The notes under the pieces were generated by a model. It made no database searches and was not told where the DNA came from. It was given only the letters and a program-made list of their open reading frames with translations. 42,878 nt of DNA from a virus, in the IMG/VR virus record IMGVR_UViG_3300009130_000057, positions 1-42,878 of that record; one strand, 5' to 3'. Positions within the stretch are counted from its first letter, which is position 1. Each line of letters starts with the position of its first letter. The position numbers were made by a program, and so were the translations under genes. Shown here piece after piece: positions 2,204-15,187 of this stretch.

Positions 2204-4468
2204 ATGATTATAGAAAAAGATAAAAAATTGGTTGTGCAGTCTCACGATTTCGATCAAGTTAATTGTACTATTGATGCCGAAGATATGCGTTATGTTGCAT
2301 CTTTATTGCGTAACAATTATTCTGATTCGCAACTTGCTATCATTCGGGAGATTACGGCAAATGCACTTGATGCAAACATTGAGGCTAAGTCTGGCAAGAA
2401 GGTAGAGGTTCATGCTCCATCTCAAACTAATCCTAATTTTTACGTAAGAGATTTCGGAAACGGATTGAGTGATGAAGAAATATTTGATCTGTACTCCAAG
2501 TATGGAAAGAGTACCAAGAGGTCATCTAATAATTATATTGGTGCGTTTGGAATAGGAAAATTTGCTCCTCTCTCTTATGGAGATAGTTTTACTGTTGTGT
2601 CTCGCAATGGAGGAGTAAAGAATTCGTATAATATCTATGTAGATGAAAACGATGATACGAAAATCATTAAATTGCATTCGGAGTCTTCGGATGAGGATTC
2701 CGGTCTTGAAGTGTCAGTAGCTATTGCAACGGATGACATTAGTAGTTTCAATGGGAAAGTAGTCTCTTTTTTCAAATATTTCAACGAAGATGATCTTCCC
2801 ACTTTCTTTGGTTTGCCTTCTGAAATAGAAAAGGTTTCGAGGACATTGGATGGGAATGGATGGTTTCTGGAGGAAAGCGATAACAGTTATCATTATGGAA
2901 GGCATTATAATGCTCATGCCGTTATGGGAAGAATTCGTTATCCAATCAATGTGGACTCCATGAATTTGGAGAATGAAAAAAACGGAGACATGATTAGGGA
3001 ACTTCTCCAACAAGATAATCTTCATATTGAATTTGAAATAGGTTCTCTAAAGTTGCATCACAGTAGAGAATCAATTGAGTACAATAAACCCACTCAAGCT
3101 ATTTTAGTTAATCGTGCCAACGAGGTTATTTCTGAAGTCGAGACTATTGCTCAAGCAAAACTGGCAGAGGCTAATGATCTTTGGGAGGCAAAGATTAAAT
3201 ACTCTCAAATTTATAATTCAATTCCACATAATTTAAAAAGGTTGTTGGAAAGTTCATTTAGTTGGAAAGGAGTTAAGATTACTTCCCCTTCATTTGATTG
3301 CAATTTTTCTTATGATAATGACTACCGGAGGATTAGGGTACTAAAGTATGTAAAAGACGAAGATGCCGATGTGTCGAATGGATTTCGGGTCGTAAACAAG
3401 AAAGCAGACAAGATATATTGCACAGAAAACACCATAATAGCTATTGCGGATTGTGCCTCACATGGTCTTTCCTTGAGGGCAAGAACCTTGTTTTTGGGGG
3501 ACGAAGATTTATCTGACATCCAAGTTTTAAGTTTCGATTCTCCGGAAGATCAAGAAGCATTCAACAAGCATCACAGTTTTGATTTAATTGGTGCAGATCG
3601 TGTTGTTTATTTGTCTACGATAAAAAAGGCAACCCTTACTTCTAAGACAAAAGCGAAGACCTTGAAGGGTCGAGTGGGACTAAAGGAATTCAACATTCAC
3701 AGTTGGAAGGATAATCCTTCTGCGAATTGGAATCATTCCGATCACGATTCTGATTGGTTGACATCCAATTCAACCGAATGTGTTTATTTTGCTACATTGG
3801 GTAATCGCATAGTGAGGGAGGGTGATGATCCTTGCGAAGAAGTTGTGTCTATTGTTAGAATGAAAAGCGTATTAAAAGCGCTTAAAGATAAATTTGAGGA
3901 AGAGGATAAGACATTTCCGGTCATTTATGGAGTCCAAGAGAAGCAATGCAAGAAACTTCAGAAATCCGTTTGGAAAAATGGATTAGATTGGGTGATAGAA
4001 CAAACAAAAGATTCTTTTGCAGAAGAATCAGTCCAATCTTATCAGAATTTAAATATTCTCAAAAAATTAAAATCGAATGAACAAGAGAATAGTTCTTATT
4101 CTAAGATTTATGATATTTTGGAAAACGATGACATATACAACTCAATTAAATCTTTAGGGAAGGATCATATTTTGGTTAAGAGTGTGAAAATATTCTCTTG
4201 TGACTATAGCAAGTATTCCAATGATTCTCGTAACGATGAATTGCTTTTAAGTTTTAACGAACAGTTCAATCCTAATTTTGATATTTCATCAAACCTTTCT
4301 CTTGGAGGATTAAGGTCTATGTTGAATGAGGTGGTTAGGGATTACCCTGTTCTTGAGCATATTTATATTCATTGGGGAGAGGCGAGCAAGACAGGCAAGG
4401 GCATTCTGGATTATGTAAACTTTTGCGATTCCGTAAAAGAAACAAAGAATGATGAAAATAACTCTTGA
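2204..4468 (+). CDS. rIIA: RIIA-like protein with GHKL-type ATPase domain
   Basis: A 754-aa protein resembling T4 RIIA, which with RIIB affects lysis inhibition and exclusion of other phages. The N-terminus has the GHKL ATP-binding boxes: an N box around residues 49-58 (REITANALDAN), a G1 box DFGNGL at ~83-88 and a G2 box GAFGIGKFAP at ~113-122. The rest is long and less conserved, which is usual for RIIA. An rIIB-like gene follows directly behind its own promoter, the classic gene order. Start chosen at 2204 because the promoter -10 is at 2158-2163. The family call rests on the motifs and the rIIA-rIIB pairing; the biochemical role is inferred. Confidence 0.85.
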   Translation: MIIEKDKKLVVQSHDFDQVNCTIDAEDMRYVASLLRNNYSDSQLAIIREITANALDANIEAKSGKKVEVHAPSQTNPNFYVRDFGNGLSDEEIFDLYSKYGKSTKRSSNNYIGAFGIGKFAPLSYGDSFTVVSRNGGVKNSYNIYVDENDDTKIIKLHSESSDEDSGLEVSVAIATDDISSFNGKVVSFFKYFNEDDLPTFFGLPSEIEKVSRTLDGNGWFLEESDNSYHYGRHYNAHAVMGRIRYPINVDSMNLENEKNGDMIRELLQQDNLHIEFEIGSLKLHHSRESIEYNKPTQAILVNRANEVISEVETIAQAKLAEANDLWEAKIKYSQIYNSIPHNLKRLLESSFSWKGVKITSPSFDCNFSYDNDYRRIRVLKYVKDEDADVSNGFRVVNKKADKIYCTENTIIAIADCASHGLSLRARTLFLGDEDLSDIQVLSFDSPEDQEAFNKHHSFDLIGADRVVYLSTIKKATLTSKTKAKTLKGRVGLKEFNIHSWKDNPSANWNHSDHDSDWLTSNSTECVYFATLGNRIVREGDDPCEEVVSIVRMKSVLKALKDKFEEEDKTFPVIYGVQEKQCKKLQKSVWKNGLDWVIEQTKDSFAEESVQSYQNLNILKKLKSNEQENSSYSKIYDILENDDIYNSIKSLGKDHILVKSVKIFSCDYSKYSNDSRNDELLLSFNEQFNPNFDISSNLSLGGLRSMLNEVVRDYPVLEHIYIHWGEASKTGKGILDYVNFCDSVKETKNDENNS

Positions 4469-4531: not shown

Positions 4532-5653
4532 ATGAATAAGATACCATACAACATGAGCGAAGATTCCATCACAGTATTTTGCGAAGGCAAACCTTATACT
4601 GTCAGAGAGGATCATCCAAACTTTAAACCCTTGCAAAGAGCATTGATTGAGGCTAGATACGATGACGTGGCTCAGTATGTTGACGTGATGAGTGTCGTGA
4701 AGGATTTTGTCGATGGTGATCTTGAGGTGAAGGATGAATGCTTATTTTTTCGTGGGCATGAACTTCATGGGGTTGTCGTTGAAAAATTGATTCAATTATT
4801 GAAGATGGGATTGAAGGATTCTTCTCCTATCGTCAACTATATCAAGAGACTCCAAAGTAATCCTTCTAATAATTCAGTTAATGAACTTTATACTTTTCTA
4901 GGGTATAAGTCCCTTCCGATTACTGAAGATGGTAAAATTTGGGGATATAAGGGAGTTCGTGACGATTATTGGTCTAGCACCGGAAATACGAATACTGTAG
5001 TAATTCAAGGGAAGACAAATGAGAGTGGTCAAATCTTTAATGGAGTAGGGGAGACTATCGAGGTCGCTAGACATTCAGTTGATGATAACAAGGACAATCA
5101 TTGCTCCAATGGACTTCACGTGGGTTCTTACGATTATGCAAATGGTTGGTCTGGACATTCCGGAAAACTCCTTGTAGTTGAGTTTGATCCTAAAGATGCA
5201 GTTAGTGTTCCCACTGATTGTGACTTTCAAAAACTTAGGGTCTGCAAGTACAAGGTCATTAGGGACATTACTGAGGCTCAAAAGGAATTGAAGAAAAGTG
5301 TTATTGTCGTAAGACGTAGTGACGATGACGAACCTTATGCCGGAGATGAATGCGAGGAAGATTATTCCGATGATTATGGGGATGAAGATTTCGAGTCTTA
5401 TTACGAAGATGATAGTGAAGAATCCGATGGAGAGGGTGTTGAATACAATCCAGAAGAAATGGCGATTAGAAATTACATCGAGAATAAGCACGATGATGGG
5501 GTCGAACCGACAATAAAGCAAGTCTTGAGCCGAATGGTTGGTTCTGGCTTGACTTGTCAGCAGATCAAGTACATAGTCCTAAATCAAGGTTTCAACGTGG
5601 AAGAAGACGAAAACATTTCGTTGTCTCAATCTCGAATTCTGATAGGGCAATAG
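4532..5653 (+). CDS. rIIB: RIIB-like protein
   Basis: A 373-aa protein with the central RIIB pattern: LYTFLGYKSLPITEDGKIWG at ~125-145, then CSNGLHVGSYDYA and VEFDPKDAVSVP with the following 'CDFQKLRVCKY' segment. T4 RIIB partners RIIA at the membrane. The ATG at 4532 is chosen; an in-frame TTG at 4493 falls in the -10 box. Residues ~265-305 form a very acidic linker, followed by a ~45-residue helical tail that looks like a small DNA-binding or interaction module (KQVLSRMVGSGLTCQQIKYI). That tail may be an addition relative to short RIIB proteins. Confidence 0.82.
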   Translation: MNKIPYNMSEDSITVFCEGKPYTVREDHPNFKPLQRALIEARYDDVAQYVDVMSVVKDFVDGDLEVKDECLFFRGHELHGVVVEKLIQLLKMGLKDSSPIVNYIKRLQSNPSNNSVNELYTFLGYKSLPITEDGKIWGYKGVRDDYWSSTGNTNTVVIQGKTNESGQIFNGVGETIEVARHSVDDNKDNHCSNGLHVGSYDYANGWSGHSGKLLVVEFDPKDAVSVPTDCDFQKLRVCKYKVIRDITEAQKELKKSVIVVRRSDDDEPYAGDECEEDYSDDYGDEDFESYYEDDSEESDGEGVEYNPEEMAIRNYIENKHDDGVEPTIKQVLSRMVGSGLTCQQIKYIVLNQGFNVEEDENISLSQSRILIGQ

Positions 5654-10539: not shown

Positions 10540-11040
10540 ATGACACTCGATGAAGCAGAAGAATTAGCGTGGGATTTAATGGAAGAACATGGGATATATG
10601 ATTTTGATTTCCAGTTCAATAATAGCAAGACATCCTTGGGTAAATGCCGGTATGGCAATCATAGGGTAATATTCTTATCTAGATGGTTTGTTCTAAATAA
10701 TTCTAAAGAAGAAATAATAGACACAATCCTACATGAGATTGCCCATGCCCTTGATTTTTACGACAGAGGAACTTCGGATCACGGAAAGAATTGGAGAAAA
10801 CATTGCGTGAGGATAGGTTGTGTGCCGAAAAGTTACTCTAAAAATACAATTAAACCAAATAATCATTACAAGTACGTCGACACCTGTGGTTGCGGAATAA
10901 CCTACAGGAGACATAGGGTGAGGCGACACTCTTTATATAGATGCCCAAAGTGCCGACAGGAATTATATGTGAACGACAGGTACTCTAAGTTACTAGAGAA
11001 AGAGCCGATCTTGGCAGAAATTTATGGTTATTCAAAATAA
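10540..11040 (+). CDS. SprT-like zinc metalloprotease
   Basis: A 166-aa protein of the SprT/Spartan-like family. Residues ~63-72 hold the zinc-binding HEIAHALDFY motif with the catalytic Glu, and a third His lies ~12 residues later (TSDHGKNW). The C-terminus carries a zinc ribbon with Cys pairs at ~116/118 (CGC) and ~135/138 (CPKC). Length fits SprT. Related proteins cut DNA-bound proteins or protein-DNA crosslinks; the substrate here is unknown. Its mRNA is predicted to be leaderless. Confidence 0.85.
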   Translation: MTLDEAEELAWDLMEEHGIYDFDFQFNNSKTSLGKCRYGNHRVIFLSRWFVLNNSKEEIIDTILHEIAHALDFYDRGTSDHGKNWRKHCVRIGCVPKSYSKNTIKPNNHYKYVDTCGCGITYRRHRVRRHSLYRCPKCRQELYVNDRYSKLLEKEPILAEIYGYSK

Positions 11041-11043
11041 AAT

Positions 11044-11072
11044 TTGACATCTTTAAAAAACCGGAGTAAGGT
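11044..11072 (+). promoter_or_regulatory. promoter giving a leaderless mRNA for 11079-11474
   Basis: TTGACA (11044-11049), 17-base spacer containing AAACCGG just before the -10, TAAGGT (11067-11072), six bases, ATG at 11079. Confidence 0.65.
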
Positions 11073-11078
11073 ATTGGC

Positions 11079-11474
11079 ATGGAAACGAAAGACTTTGAAT
11101 TAGAGTTTGAGGAAGAAACGGATAGCACTCACTTCACCTTCTGGGTGGAAGGAGAAGCAAAATGGGATATTGAAAACGATTCCTTTGATTATGCAGGGAC
11201 TCATTGTACAGGAGGAATGTCGGGAACTTGTGAGTTGCCGGATTACGCAGTAGTCGAGGAAATCAGTATTGGGTTTGTTATGATTGAAAAGACAACCGAT
11301 AGTGGTGAAGAAGTAATTAAATATACTTGGAAGAAAAACAAAGACAAGATAAAGGAATTTGAAGAAATTTGGGAGGAGAAGATTAAAGAATTATTGCAGA
11401 CTCGTGAGGATGACACCGGAGATGTGATGCGGAGAATTAAAGATTATTATGAAGAATTAAGATTGGGAATCTAA
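11079..11474 (+). CDS. hypothetical early protein (131 aa), leaderless
   Basis: A 131-aa acidic protein. The first ~80 residues look beta-rich (THFTFWVEGEAKWDIENDSF) and the last 50 helical (DKIKEFEEIWEEKIKELLQ). Predicted leaderless. No family recognised. Confidence 0.7.
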   Translation: METKDFELEFEEETDSTHFTFWVEGEAKWDIENDSFDYAGTHCTGGMSGTCELPDYAVVEEISIGFVMIEKTTDSGEEVIKYTWKKNKDKIKEFEEIWEEKIKELLQTREDDTGDVMRRIKDYYEELRLGI

Positions 11475-11489
11475 TTAAATAAAGATAAA

Positions 11490-11897
11490 ATGCTAAGACA
11501 AAGAAATCCAGAAGACCCTCGGTATAAAATAGATCGCACCAAGAAGGTGTTCGTTTATAAAAATCTACATCAAGACTGTTGGTCTATTAAACAAGATGGT
11601 TTGGTAAAAGTCCATGCCACGGAAATTAATTTATATAATTGCAATTTCAAGATTAATACCAAGGGCAGAAAGAGAGTCCTAAAGGAGAAGAAAAAGAATG
11701 TCCACGCGGGAATTTGTGGTTATATTGTTCATCCGGAGCCGGAATATGCTTGTTGGGACGACTGCTCAGATGATTCTCTTGATGAAATCACCTACAATCC
11801 ATATAAGAACACATCTTTTGTAAATAAACTTAATGAGCCAAGGTGGTTTTCCTGCCTAACTCGTTTTAAACCACACAAAGTGTTAATATCGACATGA
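11490..11897 (+). CDS. conserved phage hypothetical protein (YNPYKxxSFV type)
   Basis: A basic 135-aa protein. It has the order 'VFVYKNLHQDCWSIKQ-G', 'GRKRVLKEKKKNVHAGICGY', then YNPYKNTSFV. This arrangement matches, from memory, a small uncharacterised protein found in many phages. One or two Cys/His could bind metal but no clear site is seen. The start lacks a ribosome binding site. Confidence 0.65.
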   Translation: MLRQRNPEDPRYKIDRTKKVFVYKNLHQDCWSIKQDGLVKVHATEINLYNCNFKINTKGRKRVLKEKKKNVHAGICGYIVHPEPEYACWDDCSDDSLDEITYNPYKNTSFVNKLNEPRWFSCLTRFKPHKVLIST

Positions 11898-12606: not shown

Positions 12607-12704
12607 TCCCTGAGTTTCGGAGGTTCTCAGCTATATCTACGGATGGGCGTCACACCGGTAACGCCTCAAAACCTCTAAATTTTCCAGTAAAATTCTTCCA
12701 GGGA
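12607..12704 (+). ncRNA. compact multi-helix RNA element
   Basis: Three nested pairings can be drawn: closing stem TCCCTG (12607-12612) with CAGGGA (12699-12704), inner stem GAGGTT (12620-12625) with AACCTC (12670-12675), and hairpin GGCGT-CACACCGGTA-ACGCC (12646-12665). It begins three bases after the stop of the basic protein and lies just upstream of the promoter of the large RNA. It could be a 3' UTR element, a regulator or a terminator-like fold. No known riboswitch motif was recognised. Confidence 0.45.
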
Positions 12705-12727
12705 GCAAAAAAACACAAAAATATTAC

Positions 12728-12756
12728 TTGACAAATAATATTCATTATAGTATAGT
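12728..12756 (+). promoter_or_regulatory. strong promoter of the large structured RNA
   Basis: TTGACA (12728-12733), 17-base spacer, TATAGT (12751-12756). Predicted +1 near 12763. No gene starts shortly downstream. Confidence 0.75.
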
Positions 12757-12762
12757 ATTTAT

Positions 12763-13348
12763 ATTCAAACTTGAGAAGGCTTAACTCAAATAAAACAAAT
12801 AAAGCTTTGATCTTTTACATTTTAGTTTGCAGGTAGGTTATAATTAATAATAATCAAATAAAATAATTTATGTGGTTATGTTAAGAAGCTAACTCTAACT
12901 TGCTTGCAAACGATTTTATCTGCAAATAAGGTTTAACCTTAAATTTCGTGGAAGTTCTAATGGAATTCCTTATTTGTAGAGTCTTTGGAAGGGCTTATAA
13001 TCCTTCCTGTGGGTGACTGAGCAAGCCTGTTGTGAGCGGGCTAAGGTACACGATTCCCCTGTGGTGGGGGTGGTAGAGTCCAATCGGATGAGCCAGAGAC
13101 TTCCAGTCTTATTCGTGGTGCGAAGTAGGAACATTGAACTGATGTTCACACCGAAAAGTCGAGGGTATACAGTAGTCCCTCCCCACACATTTTTTTGTCG
13201 GCATAACTCTGCATCGTGACTCATAATTCGGGCTTCGGGGTTCGTAAGTCCGACTCCATTTCCTTATGTTCGCTTATGTTCAGAGGTGCAAGAGCGAGCA
13301 TTCTATGATTAGAACCCTCCCTGAGAAATCGGGGAGGGTTTTTATTTT
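12763..13348 (+). ncRNA. large (~585 nt) structured non-coding RNA
   Basis: The stretch between a strong promoter and a strong terminator has no convincing gene but many helices. These include a 12-bp stem CTGCAAATAAGG/CCTTATTTGTAG, GGAAGG...CCTTCC, CCCC-TGTGGT-GGGG, CGGATGAG/CTTATTCG, GAACAT-TGAACTG-ATGTTC, GAGGG...CCCTC, GTCGG/CCGAC enclosing CGGGCTT...AAGTCCG, and TCGCT...AGCGA. Size, phage origin and closeness to tRNA-like elements recall the large ornate phage RNAs ROOL and GOLLD. Identity with either is not established; it could be a new class. Confidence 0.7.
13313..13348 (+). terminator. strong intrinsic terminator of the large RNA
   Basis: AACCCTCCC (13313-13321), 10-base loop, GGGAGGGTT (13332-13340), followed by TTTATTTT. 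A 9-bp GC-rich stem with a U-tract. Confidence 0.9.
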
Positions 13349-13367
13349 GAAAAAATTCAATATCGAT

Positions 13368-13396
13368 TTGACATTCGCCGGAAGGTGGATTATAGT
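13368..13396 (+). promoter_or_regulatory. promoter for 13438-13629
   Basis: TTGACA (13368-13373), 17-base spacer, TATAGT (13391-13396). Leaves a ~35-nt A-rich leader without a ribosome binding site. Confidence 0.7.
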
Positions 13397-13437
13397 GTTT
13401 CAAGTTTTAAAATTAAGGTACAAACCCAAGAAAAAAA

Positions 13438-13629
13438 ATGAACATATCAAGAAAAGCGAAAGCGGTTTCAAAACAATCAGATCACAACCGGAAGAATAAA
13501 GCTAGGGCGAGCATTCCAAGAGCCAACTTTAGGAATTATGGTTCTGTCGTAGAGGATAGTCTATTTGCCCAACAAAGAGAGGCAGACGAAAGACTCCGCT
13601 TAATTCAATTAAAAAGAGCTTCGGCATAA
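13438..13629 (+). CDS. small very basic protein (63 aa)
   Basis: A 63-aa Arg/Lys-rich protein (MNISRKAKAVSKQSDHNRKN at the start) with a helical end (QQREADERLRLIQLKRA). The start is SD-less after an A-rich leader. One of several short basic early proteins; function unknown. Confidence 0.6.
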   Translation: MNISRKAKAVSKQSDHNRKNKARASIPRANFRNYGSVVEDSLFAQQREADERLRLIQLKRASA

Positions 13630-14640: not shown

Positions 14641-14669
14641 TTGCAATCCATTCGGAGTTGGTTTATAGT
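14641..14669 (+). promoter_or_regulatory. promoter of the tRNA-like RNA array
   Basis: TTGCAA (14641-14646), 17-base spacer, TATAGT (14664-14669). Predicted +1 near 14676. No coding gene follows until 15223, so this probably transcribes the RNA array. Confidence 0.65.
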
Positions 14670-14676
14670 GTCGGAC

Positions 14677-14703
14677 AAAGTATATTAGAGTATACTTTTT
14701 ATT
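14677..14703 (+). promoter_or_regulatory. hairpin with U-tract at the start of the transcript
   Basis: AAAGTATA (14677-14684), loop TTAGAG, TATACTTT (14691-14698), then TT and a T-rich stretch. It begins at the predicted +1. It could be a premature terminator/attenuator, or a 5' hairpin protecting the RNA. Confidence 0.5.
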
Positions 14704-14723
14704 GTTCTTTTTAATTTTATTGT

Positions 14724-14872
14724 GGGGGTGCATAGCATAATGCGGTAAAATGCGCCGATCTCGTCAGGAGGGTTGATCTCCTTGAAACTCGCTTAGTTCC
14801 ATTTCTAGATTGGGCTAGTTGGGGGAAACGATTAAGGTCGGAGACATGGAGGTTCGATTCCTCCCACTCCCT
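14724..14872 (+). ncRNA. tRNA-like RNA with 73-nt insertion in the anticodon arm
   Basis: Acceptor GGGGGTG (14724-14730) pairs with CACTCCC (14865-14871). D-type hairpin GCAT-11 nt-ATGC is at 14735-14753. An anticodon-type stem CCGATCT (14755-14761)/AGGTCGG (14835-14841) follows, then a canonical T arm GGAGG-TTCGATT-CCTCC (14848-14864). The anticodon loop is replaced by 73 nt holding hairpin AGGAG-GGTTGAT-CTCCT. C32-T33 are conserved at the left edge, as in a tRNA with an intron, but the insert is too small for a group I intron. Four bases (not two) link acceptor and D arm, and CCA is not encoded. Confidence 0.6.
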
Positions 14873-14873
14873 G

Positions 14874-14950
14874 CTCTTTCAGTAGATGCGAAAGCATTGA
14901 ACAACGAGGCGTCAGAACACGCCTACAACCCTTCGGGGAGAGAGAAAGAG
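14874..14950 (+). ncRNA. four-way-junction RNA element
   Basis: CTCTTTC (14874-14880) pairs with GAAAGAG (14944-14950) and encloses three hairpins: ATGC-GAAA-GCAT (GNRA tetraloop), AGGCGT-CAGAAC-ACGCCT and CCC-TTCG-GGG (UUCG tetraloop). It looks like a cloverleaf but has no T-loop or anticodon, so it is not a tRNA. Stable tetraloops suggest a structural RNA. Confidence 0.55.
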
Positions 14951-14968
14951 GTACAAAACACAATTTAC

Positions 14969-15057
14969 GAGGTGAAAGGATGGTAGGTATCCTCCCACAG
15001 AAAGGTTGGGCAAGATTCGTTAAGATACCATGTTAAGTTCGATTCTTAACCGCCTCT
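14969..15057 (+). ncRNA. tRNA-like RNA without a usable anticodon
   Basis: Acceptor GAGGTG (14969-14974)/CGCCTC (15051-15056), D arm GGAT-GGTAGGT-ATCC (14978-14992) and canonical T arm GTTAAG-TTCGATT-CTTAAC (15032-15050). Stems are 6+6 where 7+5 is normal. The anticodon arm is poor: CCCA/TGGG with no U at position 33, then a ~21-nt variable region. It may be a degenerate tRNA or a tRNA mimic. Confidence 0.5.
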
Positions 15058-15064
15058 TCAATTT

Positions 15065-15168
15065 GAGAGTCCATTACAACGCCTTATTAGACTAAAACTG
15101 CGTATGCGGGCAAGGTACATGAGTGGTAAGACACTTTAGGATTTATCGGGTGTGGCGACTCGACTCTC
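15065..15168 (+). ncRNA. structured RNA closed by a tRNA-length acceptor-type stem
   Basis: GAGAGTC (15065-15071) pairs with GACTCTC (15162-15168), with one more T-A pair outside. Inside are AGTG-GTAAGA-CACT (15122-15135) and a larger helix CCTT...AAGG. No T-loop is seen. It ends the array, 20 bases before the next coding promoter. Confidence 0.4.
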
Positions 15169-15187
15169 ATTATTTTTAATTTTTAAT

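Follow-up and report, generated by a model that had tools for sequence, protein, structure and literature searches.

Positions 12763-13348 of a 42,878-base virus record (the whole record, called "the window" here) form a promoter-to-terminator stretch without a gene. The only strong Rfam match in this stretch is manA (RF01745), which is matched over its full length (model positions 1-192) at 76.1 bits, well above the gathering threshold of 55.2. The unit and its immediate surroundings contain the following features:

12728..12756, plus strand: sigma-70 promoter TTGACA-N17-TATAGT, 11/12 consensus positions, predicted transcription start ~12763
12771..12808, plus strand: 5′ H-type pseudoknot, with loop/tail covariation across leaders (alignment A2)
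12809..12819, plus strand: boxA-like element GAUCUUUUACA, relaxed motif G[ACT]TCTTT[AT]ANA
12825..12980, plus strand: 5′ insert between boxA and manA, with two long hairpins
12987..13191, plus strand: manA RNA core (RF01745), cmscan 76.1 bits, E 9.4e-18
13192..13310, plus strand: 3′ insert between manA core and terminator, 119 nt, seen in this phage only
13311..13348, plus strand: intrinsic terminator, hairpin 13311-13342 with 14 pairs (7 G-C), -23.1 kcal/mol, then a T run
13368..13396, plus strand: promoter of the next gene, TTGACA-N17-TATAGT, 3′ of the terminator

This stretch is a non-coding, highly structured RNA unit, which bears out the original prediction of a large structured RNA of about 585 nt, without a gene, transcribed from its own TTGACA-N17-TATAGT promoter. 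The whole 586 nt folds to -187.5 kcal/mol, compared with -150.1 ± 6.4 for dinucleotide shuffles (z -5.8; 0/100 shuffles as good). That the structure exceeds chance is also indicated by the core, whose match to an independent Rfam covariance model has an E of 9e-18. The helices that were said to fill the unit are also there, including two long stems in its 5′ part: one of 16 bp (12825-12840/12896-12911) and one of 13 bp (12919-12931/12968-12980). Short ORFs exist on both strands and are what one could cite for a coding region, or for structure arising by chance. However, each plus frame of each of 36 homologues contains stops, no minus frame is open throughout the set, and the manA domain (205-218 nt long) carries single-base indels between homologues, so examining frames and indels in all 36 revealed no conserved protein across the unit. 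With the z of -5.8 and the covariation described below, a coding or chance origin has a negligible probability.

The homologues come from pattern scans of IMG/VR, which gave two groups: group A, i.e., 36 distinct window-like sequences including the window itself, and group B, i.e., cyanophage-type loci. Rfam confirms manA in 31/31 group-A records tested (13 to 206 kb), with one copy in each. Many small genes are common to group-A members and lie in similar order, and the group, the source of all 36 homologues, is one clade of large marine phages. The terminase of the window phage has only a remote likeness to those of Firmicutes phages, and blastn of the whole unit against named phages gave weak matches only, none of which covered more than 7% of the query. 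Using the Rfam consensus as query, cyanophage-type manA was found in 42 records. Two further manA matches, in genome collections, are MAG contigs from two different phyla and are probably phage contigs.

Within the core, P1 is formed by 12987-12993/13001-13007, the closing helix by UGUGGG (13008-13013) and CCCACA (13182-13187), and the 3′ hairpin by GAGGG (13161-13165) and CCCUC (13177-13181). Double compensatory changes occur at 19 of the 48 predicted pairs across the 36 sequences; the closing helix is invariant among them and hence lies outside this test.

A resemblance to ROOL and GOLLD had also been suggested for this RNA. It is indeed large, structured, non-coding, phage-borne and of unexplained function, as they are (PMC12286853), but it has no sequence or covariance-model match to them and its core is much smaller. 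Membership was rejected, as neither family gave an Rfam match over the window at the gathering threshold or on 12700-13400 at E≤10, and the core is manA. An ornate RNA that assembles into RNA-only cages, as a ROOL/GOLLD-like molecule would, could account for the similar size, phage origin, own promoter and terminator, modular build and the tRNA 2.5 kb upstream, but the lack of a match even at E≤10 and a conserved core of only ~205 nt make this very unlikely.

In 2010, manA was described as a certain RNA, certainly cis-regulatory and probably a riboswitch, occurring in marine metagenomes, gamma-proteobacteria and cyanophages (PMC2864571), and its Rfam type is Cis-reg. The window RNA is like the published motif (RF01745; Weinberg et al. 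2010, PMC2864571) in its full-length model match, helices, conserved loops, and phage and marine origin. It is unlike that motif in being free-standing, whereas the known form is part of the 5′ UTR of metabolic or phage genes, and in adding its own promoter, a leader of pseudoknot and boxA, exchangeable inserts and a terminator. Cyanophage-type manA does sit in 5′ UTRs: in named cyanophages it precedes gp32 (P-HM2), a purL fragment and hsp20 (P-SSM2) or a hypothetical gene (P-SSM3). In P-HM2 (GU075905.1), two annotated hypothetical proteins overlie the manA RNA at 4849-5023 and are probably spurious gene calls. In the S-CREM1 genome, the wcaG, manA and abiF RNAs all fall within some 820 bases (PMC9964418), a spacing which suggests that manA in cyanophages, too, may be part of an RNA-rich block.

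The two kinds of locus differ in the terminator. The original prediction was right that one is present but gave it 9 bp, an undercount of its 14 pairs. A terminator that does not overlap the core precedes the next ORF in 32/36 homologues versus 1/33 cyanophage-type loci (32/36 is from a folding-based scan; a stricter scan with limited loop length gave 23/36), and in most relatives a promoter-like match follows the terminator, ahead of the next ORF. In the window, manA is likewise separated from the next gene by a terminator and that gene's own promoter, i.e., it is not placed as a 5′-UTR element. Judged from sequence, its fold thus makes the window RNA a manA-core RNA, but its position places it outside the cis-regulatory class.

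The neighbouring genes point the same way. A 63-aa ORF (13438-13629) follows the RNA in the window, and its relatives precede the RNA in 22 other loci; conversely, a 135-aa ORF (11490-11897) lies upstream in the window and has relatives downstream in 28 loci. The unit has thus changed place relative to these ORFs and is not tied to one downstream gene. There are exceptions in the clade: in L002 and L007 a gene begins 18-27 nt past manA with no terminator and no promoter, L073 has no terminator, and in L083 the gene that comes after the terminator has no clear promoter. Some phages may therefore use manA in cis, and the three terminator-less loci together with L083 keep alive two alternatives to a free-standing RNA, a cis-acting leader and an antitermination element.

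The first is that manA regulates the next gene in cis, as a riboswitch or mRNA leader, which is the class given to it by Rfam (type Cis-reg) and Weinberg 2010. The riboswitch proposed for manA from marine metagenomes and cyanophages (PMC2864571), the 5′-UTR position of the cyanophage loci, and L002 and L007 with their missing terminators are all consistent with this, but a non-overlapping terminator in 32/36, usually followed by a new promoter, and a downstream gene in the window that differs from that of relatives make it quite unlikely as the explanation here.

The second alternative involves the boxA of the leader. A promoter-like match of at least 10/12 occurs within 120 nt upstream of boxA in 34/35 testable leaders (~10% in mononucleotide shuffles), although in L106, L109 and L112 the scored match falls in the pseudoknot and a better-placed TTGACA promoter lies further upstream. 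In the window, the pseudoknot pairing was assigned by eye and not by script: the stem is UUGAG (12771-12775) with CUCAA (12785-12789), and the second helix pairs the loop AAGGCUU (12776-12782) with AAGCUUU (12802-12808), leaving an A-rich linker in between. Across leaders, loops and tails covary, with an own-pair score of 197 compared with 140.8 ± 10.7 when tails were re-dealt (0/5000 as good), so the covariation that the original prediction had proposed seeking in homologues exists in both core and leader. Most leaders carry the pseudoknot; in about one third of distinct leaders the loop is too short for the second pseudoknot helix, and a few have no pseudoknot altogether.

The boxA-like motif G[ACT]TCTTT[AT]ANA is present in 33/36 leaders (0.7% per 260 nt in shuffles) and in 0/38 cyanophage-type manA loci. 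The published boxA consensus is GYTCTTTAANA (PMC5725501), which 9/36 leaders match exactly. The window copy, GATCTTTTACA, has two mismatches to this consensus, which is gamma-proteobacterial.

When IMG/VR was searched with the leader alone, 36 stretches were found. Three of these (L167, L170 and L174) seem to match by chance, and L146 has another core, but nearly all genuine matches run into manA, which indicates that the leader is specific to RNA units of this sort. L146, whose leader lies on the minus strand at reverse-complement 3490-3560, has a promoter, pseudoknot, boxA, terminator and downstream gene as in manA units. Its core of ~430 nt gave no manA model match at E≤1 and by eye holds manA-like motifs, so it could be an expanded relative or a swapped core.

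Leaders of rRNA operons open with boxB-boxA. Like an rRNA operon leader, where the Nus complex assembles, the window unit has the order promoter, folded element, boxA and untranslated structured RNA. It is unlike one in that its 5′ element is a pseudoknot, its RNA is not rRNA, its boxA is a two-mismatch variant and its Nus binding is putative. At E. coli rRNA, the main role attributed to the Nus complex is the promotion of folding, the rRNA itself being Rho-resistant (PMC5725501), and boxA is necessary and sufficient for assembly of the rRNA antitermination complex (PMC10250234).

A boxA-like site beside a structured RNA is also found in nut sites, and the second alternative is accordingly a processive antitermination element: boxA and the manA fold would modify RNA polymerase in cis, as put/nut RNAs do, giving read-through of the adjacent and later terminators. 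A terminator directly downstream of the manA unit, the L083 arrangement, and the placement of cyanophage-type manA before unrelated genes would all suit such an element. However, for most downstream genes a promoter of their own directly follows the terminator, cyanophage-type manA lacks both boxA (0/38) and terminator (1/33), and put RNAs are far smaller and less conserved than the manA core. We consider antitermination unlikely, if not strikingly so.

Between leader and core, and again after the core, the unit accommodates inserts. At the boxA-manA junction, about half of the homologues have a spacer of 6-7 nt and the others an insert of ~50-213 nt; these 5′ inserts are mostly closed by a terminal stem and have little sequence in common. 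In most relatives manA runs straight to the terminator with no 3′ insert. That of the window had no blastn match among the homologous loci compared and, at the gathering threshold, matched neither tRNA nor any other family. A tRNA-like reading of it (GUCGG...CCGAC-UCCA) was rejected, as ARAGORN and Rfam gave no tRNA. Some relatives do have inserts between manA and terminator (L026, L094, L059, L069, L113). Those of L026 and L094 appear by eye to have a module in common, and that of L059 contains a second copy of the leader-type pseudoknot.

The gene structure of the unit, i.e., its boundaries, promoters, pseudoknot, boxA-like site, insertion point, core and non-coding nature, is well supported by the comparison. 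Transcription, Nus recruitment, trans action and the molecular target of the manA RNA are what we infer from it. On balance, we think it somewhat probable that this is a free-standing phage RNA made in the manner of rRNA and acting in trans. Trans action is suggested because the unit has a terminator and the next gene has a separate promoter. The strong sigma-70 promoter would give an untranslated transcript of roughly 585 nt that opens with the pseudoknot and boxA-like site. The latter would recruit host NusB/S10 to the polymerase, keeping up elongation and helping the RNA to fold, as for rRNA. Transcription would stop at the unit's own terminator, and the released RNA would work in trans via its conserved manA core, with the insert at the boxA-manA junction as an exchangeable accessory domain. 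Antisense action on the phage's own genes found no support, in that the rest of the window contains no exact antisense match of at least 13 nt. The first place to seek a target would be the host translation or transcription machinery.

The manA fold was already known, but as far as our searches reached, the gene architecture in this clade is undescribed. Since 2010, manA has counted as a certain RNA and probably a riboswitch, but one with neither a ligand nor a function assigned to it. If a whole phage clade carries it as an RNA gene in its own right, looking for a ligand that acts on the gene downstream may be misdirected, and RNA pull-down from infected cells becomes the experiment to do. 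The insertion point supplies natural variants of the RNA that have accessory domains or lack them.

The window contains a second structured RNA of this kind, with the following features:

14641-15185: second structured RNA, an ORF-less stretch led by a promoter and boxA, seen in the window
14703-14718: boxA-like site of the second RNA, at the start of this other ORF-less stretch
14726-14872: tRNA-like element with 74 nt replacing the anticodon loop, Rfam tRNA 28.1 bits, just below the 29-bit cut-off

In this RNA the tRNA-like element is fused to a conserved domain, GAACAACGAGGCGU...CACGCCUACAAC, which occurs in 42 distinct IMG/VR loci (the loci listed are the window, L046, L069, L073 and L117-L166). 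Its 510-nt stretch folds only slightly better than shuffles (z -1.6), so the evidence for it is comparative. The closing stem of the domain covaries, with an own-stem score of 616 versus 491 ± 14 and 0/1000 re-pairings as good. This direct stem test was used because RNAalifold on the domain (domain B) gave an invariant hairpin only, the alignment being poor outside the core. A looser scan found a boxA-like site in 20 of the 41 loci with enough upstream sequence, window included. The domain matched no Rfam family at E≤10 (window) or at the gathering threshold (three relatives), blastn against named phages found nothing, either with the tRNA-like element and domain of the window together or with one domain variant alone, and a literature search with the 13-letter core string returned no relevant paper. 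The second RNA looks like an undescribed phage RNA family.

The two RNAs also have a part in common. A structured module of ~110 nt (GAGAGUGCAGUAC...) is the 5′ insert of the L008 manA RNA (L008 3789-3904, minus strand) and also the 3′ module of the second RNA (window 15062-15169, L069 6743-6843), with about 70% identity. Modules therefore appear, from these alignments, to be exchanged between the manA RNA and the second RNA. More tentatively, large marine phages might carry rRNA-style RNA-gene cassettes, with manA as the trans-acting core of one and the second, tRNA-like family as another, often led by boxA. Such a cassette would consist of promoter, pseudoknot, boxA, exchangeable structured domains and terminator, and if non-coding RNA genes of phages do have a boxA leader, this would mean that phages use the rRNA transcription-folding machinery for RNAs of their own. 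One member of the clade, L007, also has a phage-encoded tmRNA (10941-11374, minus strand; ARAGORN call) with an unusually long basic tag peptide, GAKKHVRALGFKNRIAAKRFGYKSRKLALAA.
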